Under the pieces are notes generated by a model. That model was not told the DNA's origin and made no database searches. It saw nothing but the letters and a program-made list of their open reading frames with translations. From the NCBI GenBank assembly GCA_903927755.1, contig CAIYOD010000042.1, positions 1 to 64,000 of the forward strand: DNA of 64,000 nucleotides. Reading direction: 5' to 3'. How positions within the stretch are numbered: position 1 is the stretch's first letter; each line of letters begins with the position of its first letter. The position numbers and the translations under genes were made by a program. Source of the DNA: an uncultured Thermoleophilia bacterium (GTDB lineage Bacteria > Actinomycetota > Thermoleophilia > UBA2241). This document shows, in pieces, positions 18,298-19,115 of this stretch.

Positions 18298-18510
18298 CTA
18301 CTCCTCCACCCACTCCAGGATCACGGCCTCCTCGGGGCAGGCCTCGTCGGCACGTAAGGCGGCGGCCCAGAGCGTCGCGTGGGGCTCCTCCTCGAGCACG
18401 TCCGGGAGGCCCTCGTCGTTCATGAAGAAGACCTCCGGGCAGACCTGCTCGCAGGCGCCGACGCCCGTACACTTGTCGTAGTCGACGCTGACTCTCAGCT
18501 TGCGTGGCAT
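18298..18510 (-). CDS. Small ferredoxin, probably [3Fe-4S]
   Basis: 70 residues. The cluster motif is C-x5-C-x3-CP (CTGVGACEQVCP) with a distal Cys in EACPEEA. The second Cys of the usual CxxCxxC motif is replaced by Val, as in [3Fe-4S] ferredoxins of actinobacteria that serve P450s and related oxygenases. No P450 is in the window. A TAGACT box lies 6 nt before the ATG, so it appears to be a single leaderless gene. It lies divergently next to the peroxiredoxin gene. Confidence 0.85.
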   Translation of the reverse strand: MPRKLRVSVDYDKCTGVGACEQVCPEVFFMNDEGLPDVLEEEPHATLWAAALRADEACPEEAVILEWVEE

Positions 18511-18522: not shown

Positions 18523-18665
18523 CCTCGCCGGAGCGTGCCCCGCGCCCGGATGCGTTGCCCTGCCGCACACCGTTTCGCCTTGGCGGCGCTGGGGGTAAGC
18601 ACCCTGCCGAAGGATGCGCGGCTCCCTGTGAGGGCTCCGCGCGCAGACCATCCGGGAGGGGCCGC

Positions 18666-19115
18666 ATGCTCAAGGAAGGCGACAAAGCGCCGGCAGTCAC
18701 TGGTGTCTCGTACGACGGTGCGAGCTTCGACCTCGGCGCGCCGGGCAAGCGCACCGCTCTCTTCTTCTATCCCAAAGCCAACACCGGGGGCTGAACGACC
18801 GAAGCCGTTGAGTTCAACGGCCTGCTGGACGAGTTCGCCGCCCTCGACGTGCAGGTGATCGGGGCGAGCGTGGACAAGCCGGGCGCGAACGAGCGCTGGG
18901 CGCAGAAGTACGACCTCAAAATGCCGCTGATCAGCGACCACGGCGACCACACGGTGGCGAGCGCGTTCGGTGTGGCGCGGCCGATGGTCGGGGTGGCCAA
19001 GCGCACGACCTGGCTCATCGATCCGGACGGTACTCTGCGCAAGGTGTACCCCGCCGTGAAGGCCAAGGGGCACGCGGCCGCGGTGCTGGCCGACTGCAGG
19101 GAGATCTCGGGCTAG
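18666..19115 (+). CDS. Selenocysteine-containing peroxiredoxin (Bcp/AhpC-TSA type), TGA read through at codon 43
   Basis: 149 residues if the TGA at 18792-18794 is read as selenocysteine. The N-terminal part ends FFYPKANTGG and the same frame resumes with TTEAVEFNGLLDEF, so Sec43 replaces the peroxidatic Cys of the family motif TPGCTTEA. The rest is intact: VIGASVDKPGANERW, PLISDHGDHTVASAFGV and TTWLIDPDGT. The only Cys is C144, with no resolving Cys at +5. GGGAGGGG precedes the ATG. Immediately after the TGA is a SECIS-like hairpin. A sequencing error or nonsense mutation is the alternative, but the stop falls exactly on the catalytic residue and the frame is otherwise unbroken. Confidence 0.9.
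18792..18821 (+). promoter_or_regulatory. UGA codon plus bacterial SECIS-like hairpin
   Basis: TGA at 18792-18794 is followed by a 7-bp perfect stem, GCCGTTG (18804-18810) with CAACGGC (18815-18821), closed by the tetraloop AGTT. The loop contains GU at 18812-18813, about 18 nt after the UGA. Bacterial SECIS elements lie directly downstream of the UGA inside the reading frame and carry a GU in the apical loop for SelB, matching this geometry. Confidence 0.75.

Follow-up and report, generated by a model that had tools for sequence, protein, structure and literature searches.

Peroxiredoxins (Prx) of the Bcp type (COG1225) in which selenocysteine (Sec) stands within a TxxU motif are listed among the selenoprotein families of prokaryotes (PMC9312934, PMC13188914, PMC1794560), in agreement with the statement in an earlier note on this DNA that Sec-containing peroxiredoxins exist in some bacteria; the extended motif of the family is PxxxTxxU (PMC13188914), and such proteins are abundant in Sargasso Sea data (PMC1088965). 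PrxU of Eubacterium acidaminophilum is a biochemically characterised Sec-peroxiredoxin, according to the citation of Sohling et al. 2001 in PMC13188914. Our literature search placed no Sec-peroxiredoxin or other selenoprotein in the Thermoleophilia. Here we analyse a gene in a 64,000-nucleotide stretch of DNA (the window) from an uncultured member of this class, and conclude, with a probability of roughly 0.96, that its product is a Sec-containing PrxQ/Bcp peroxiredoxin in which UGA codon 43 is recoded by means of SelB and an mRNA hairpin, an external reductant being the likeliest partner.

The gene lies on the plus strand at 18666-19115, with an ATG start and a TAG stop (19113-19115), and encodes 149 amino acids when TGA is read as Sec; a Shine-Dalgarno-like GGGAGGGG (18654-18661, plus strand), read straight off the sequence, ends 4 nt 5' of the ATG. 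The earlier note had claimed that an in-frame TGA splits a peroxiredoxin at its peroxidatic Cys and that the frame then runs on without error to 19115, and both observations hold: the single frame is interrupted only by the TGA at 18792-18794, and PrxQ proteins of known crystal structure align with a Cys exactly at this codon, with homology on both sides. The read-through protein has an AhpC/TSA domain (PF00578, Pfam E=1.7e-29) and carries the putative U43 within PKANTGGUTTEAVEF, so that P36-KAN-T40-GG-U43 matches the PxxxTxxU motif. One might instead suppose that two products are made without Sec, a short peptide ending at the UGA and a C-terminal fragment re-initiated at GTG 18849; an open reading frame at 18849-19115 does exist mechanically, but neither half would be a complete Prx fold, the joined protein is modelled by AlphaFold2 as a confident Prx fold (pLDDT 96.1), and TGA and hairpin are conserved throughout the family, so we give this reading next to no weight. 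A small ferredoxin gene (Fer4_15, single 4Fe-4S cluster) lies at about 18300-18510 of the window on the minus strand, divergent from the Prx gene; such a gene was detected beside the Prx gene in some relatives only.

The aligned homologues, which the earlier note had proposed to compare at codon 43, show TGA at this position in 13 of 13 full-length family orthologues (this genome and 12 others, 62-87% identity), a count that leaves out one relative whose partial match misses the codon and one relative without a match. Most matches from another family of the class (f4) also have TGA there, as do some members of the Nitrospinota, Nitrospirota, Planctomycetota, Anaeromyxobacter and Acidobacteriota; other PrxQ homologues have Cys. 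These data bear on whether a TGC was misread or misassembled as TGA, or the gene is a pseudogene decaying after a nonsense mutation. The draft is indeed fragmented (188 contigs, 86.9% complete) and ordinary PrxQ proteins have Cys at the site, but the same TGA recurs in the 12 other family genomes, in further families of this class, and in other phyla, and it is the single internal stop in each of the 13 family orthologues. No further stops or frameshifts are seen, so the decay of the C-terminal part in relatives that the earlier note had named as telling against its reading did not appear, and the protein is conserved together with the hairpin codons described below. The universal TGA, the invariant hairpin codons and the covarying stem together rule out error and pseudogene, at about one chance in a hundred.

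The neighbourhood metX-metW-csp-MBL-cupin-Prx-HD, in which csp is a cold-shock gene, MBL encodes a beta-lactamase-fold protein and HD an HD protein, is largely common to the family and, with the occurrence of the TGA across it, points to the Sec-peroxiredoxin being an old chromosomal gene and not a fresh mutation. In the tree the family Sec forms make up one clade (98/90), and on the tree of this sample Cys and Sec are exchanged at least six times, in one direction or the other. Two Cys PrxQ proteins from f4 (L032 in G057 and L038 in G047), which have no Cys five residues after the peroxidatic position (+5), are nested among Sec forms; these are candidates for reversion from Sec to Cys, judged by their placement.

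Downstream of the TGA is a hairpin of the SECIS type (18804-18821, plus strand), with a 7-bp stem (18804-18810 paired with 18815-18821) and an AGUU loop (18811-18814). The earlier note had put this hairpin directly after the TGA, with the loop GU about 18 nt away; stem, loop and spacing are as described (the loop G is 18 nt past the last base of the TGA), but the hairpin begins 9 nt past the TGA. Folding of the RNA, which the note had also suggested, yields the hairpin with an energy that on its own is mildly unusual (z -2.0 to -2.2). Of the synonymous recodings within the family, 13-43% fold equally well, and the energy is unremarkable among them because the protein sequence itself favours the hairpin. 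Mean hairpin energy in this stretch is -9.1 kcal/mol for Sec genes versus -1.9 for Cys genes, a gap to which amino-acid sequence and G+C content contribute. Three more distant Sec forms (L059, L064 and L117) fold poorly into this particular hairpin. Folding energy was therefore set aside as sole evidence for a SECIS element, being too weak for that purpose, and, since it is only moderately unusual, the hairpin was tested comparatively.

All 13 family sequences share the same six codons, GAA GCC GTT GAG TTC AAC, at positions +3 to +8 relative to the TGA; by contrast with the hairpin Val, which is GTT, the fully conserved Val at +21 is encoded by GTG or GTC and never by GTT, and at the majority of the remaining Val and Ala positions that are fully conserved two or three codons occur. 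Across 17 distinct sequences at the level of the class, 93.3% of stem cells are paired, both sides have changed at three of the seven stem pairs, with C-G replaced by G-C in five sequences, and a compensated stem, GCCAUCG-AGUU-CGAUGGC, occurs. The covariation score of these 17 sequences is equalled by none of 500 shuffles, and pairing falls to 18-59% in slid controls in which the partners are moved by 1-3 columns. Bacterial Sec stem-loops have been described as following the UGA immediately and as having a small apical loop in which a G is present (PMC1088965), and the AGUU loop, 7-bp stem and covariation conform to this description. The strong case for a SECIS-type function is thus comparative, resting on the TGA in all 13 orthologues, the invariant hairpin codons and the covariation, and the element is predicted on that basis.

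An in-frame TGA does not by itself identify the residue inserted, and UGA might be read as something other than Sec, through reassignment to Trp or Gly or through near-cognate readthrough. TGA is, however, the stop codon of ten of the 12 further genes of the window that were checked, which indicates that UGA is not generally reassigned. The genome (a draft of 3.54 Mb, examined by profile searches) moreover has a dedicated tRNA-Sec gene (selC; 65.9 bits, UCA anticodon, 8-bp acceptor stem, long variable arm, GCCA end) and a fragment of selB, the last 186 codons of which run from base 2 of contig C188, the rest being cut off by the contig end; the 186-aa ORF has a SelB-wing_3 domain and is 60-77% identical to SelB of relatives. 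TGA is also found at catalytic, Cys-homologous sites of this Prx, of a formate dehydrogenase and of SelD in relatives, and a residue other than Sec at codon 43 is accordingly very improbable, at perhaps one chance in fifty. The formate dehydrogenase alpha subunit, FdhA (L181, G000:C13:19869-21860, minus strand; 831 bits), has one in-frame TGA in CARTUHAPTVAGL, which we take to be the classical FdhA Sec site, and fdhA is on this evidence a predicted second selenoprotein gene of the same genome.

The complement of sel genes, which the earlier note had proposed to search, was recovered in part: tRNA-Sec and the selB fragment are present, so the genome is not devoid of all sel genes, as the note would have taken against Sec, but profile searches of the 86.9%-complete draft found neither selA nor selD. 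In relatives the order is selD-selA-selB followed by a convergent gene, and C188 is collinear with it and broken inside selB; because selA and selD there sit just upstream of the break point, a contig break is most likely the cause of the gap and the most economical reading of it. Across 15 genomes (relatives and this one), selA was found in 11, tRNA-Sec in 12, SelD in 10 and the SelB wing in 14. That the organism decodes UGA as Sec, as the note proposed, is borne out by tRNA-Sec, the selB fragment, fdhA with its TGA and the TGA in all 13 orthologues. Two kinds of match were discarded: a selD-profile match on C170 (91.6 bits) that scores higher for HypE and belongs to a HAD-AIR-synthase fusion, and selB-profile matches other than C188, which fall mostly in the N-terminal GTPase region, below the cut-off, and occur in every control genome. 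The C170 gene (L007:793-2514, G000) encodes a fusion of a HAD hydrolase with an AIR-synthase/HypE-like domain, which scores weakly on SelD models. The SelD frames of relatives (L151-L160) are interrupted once by an in-frame TGA, which falls within the N-terminal active site in the context SG-TGA-AAK, and SelD is there predicted to be a Sec protein itself.

The closest structures in the PDB to the AlphaFold2 model are Bcp/PrxQ proteins, and the best NCBIfam match is PRK09437, at 79.8 bits, under its 140-bit cut-off. A Gly before the peroxidatic Cys is typical of PrxQ (PMC5302317), and Gly precedes U43; the protein is of the PrxQ/Bcp subfamily and not of another Prx type. P36, T40 and R113 are invariant in a 30-sequence alignment and make up, with U43, the standard Prx active site.

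At +5, the usual PrxQ resolving site, there is no Cys but Val in all 13 family orthologues. A Cys at +5 occurs in none of 27 distinct Sec sequences versus 58 of 70 Cys homologues, a Flavobacteria-rich sample whose rate is given without phylogenetic correction. The earlier note had C144 (codon 19095-19097, plus strand) as the sole other Cys, correctly for this copy, and had resolution proceed through C144 or an external thiol. C144 could indeed pair with Sec43 in a selenylsulfide, within one molecule or between two subunits, and it is also present in three relatives (G004, G010 and G005), but nine of the 13 orthologues have Ala or Val at position 144, and six of these nine lack Cys altogether. 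We rejected C144 as a conserved resolver, retained as it is in 4 of 13, and consider a selenylsulfide through it improbable, though less so than the alternatives weighed above. No conserved internal resolver was found among the 13 family orthologues, which thereby depart from an atypical 2-Cys PrxQ, and since there is none, an external thiol is the likeliest resolver, the second of the note's two options fitting better than the first.

Most of the Sec proteins examined have no Cys whatever. We tentatively propose, as somewhat short of an even chance, that in PrxQ a peroxidatic Sec accompanies loss of the internal resolver and defines a class of one-chalcogen peroxidases with a reductant of their own, which in some genomes might involve a tandem Prx paralogue. 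In two relatives an AhpC/TSA paralogue lies directly upstream of the Sec-peroxiredoxin (L021:994-1443 in G009 and L027:1001-1444 in G005); it has neither Cys nor Sec at the peroxidatic position and two other Cys, and may be a non-catalytic partner of the Sec-peroxiredoxin. In the window, no tandem Prx paralogue was found beside the Sec-peroxiredoxin gene.

We infer Sec insertion, peroxidase activity and reductant as follows. SelB carrying Sec-tRNA-Sec would bind the mRNA hairpin just 3' of UGA codon 43, and Sec would be put in there in place of termination. The selenolate of residue 43 (PxxxTGGU) would attack H2O2 or an organic hydroperoxide and become a selenenic acid, which, as no resolving Cys is conserved in the protein, would most likely be reduced from outside, for example by thioredoxin or by a thiol of low molecular weight, in a '1-Sec' cycle. 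An uncultured Thermoleophilia family is indicated to decode UGA as selenocysteine and to retain Sec family-wide in a peroxide-detoxifying enzyme, and in this genome Sec appears to be used in formate dehydrogenase as well. Gene calling with table 11 truncates such genes, which makes them easy to mis-annotate in metagenome-assembled genomes, and the Cys-free Sec forms make the reductant of a one-chalcogen PrxQ directly testable.

Set against known systems, the protein resembles PrxU in being a predicted Sec-containing peroxiredoxin, but it reaches 43.5 bits on the PrxU model (NF040737) against a cut-off of 270 bits, and is of the shorter PrxQ/Bcp type without a conserved second Cys. With the PrxQ/Bcp thiol peroxidases (PRK09437; Xanthomonas PrxQ, 5iiz; Sulfolobus Bcp1, 3drn) it shares the fold and the TxGC(T)xE context, at TM-scores of 0.8-0.9, and differs from them in having Sec for Cys and in lacking a resolving Cys at +5. 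The 1-Cys peroxiredoxins, such as AhpE of M. tuberculosis (1xxu), offer a mechanistic analogy, with a single reactive chalcogen and an external reductant; here the chalcogen would be selenium and not sulphur, and the match in fold and sequence is weaker than to PrxQ. It is with the COG1225/Bcp Sec-peroxiredoxins that the agreement is closest, in domain family, PxxxTxxU motif, Sec for the peroxidatic Cys and a downstream SECIS of bacterial type; by all these features of sequence we judge the protein to be a genuine selenoprotein of this already known class, from which it differs in host lineage only, here an actinobacterial family of the Thermoleophilia type.
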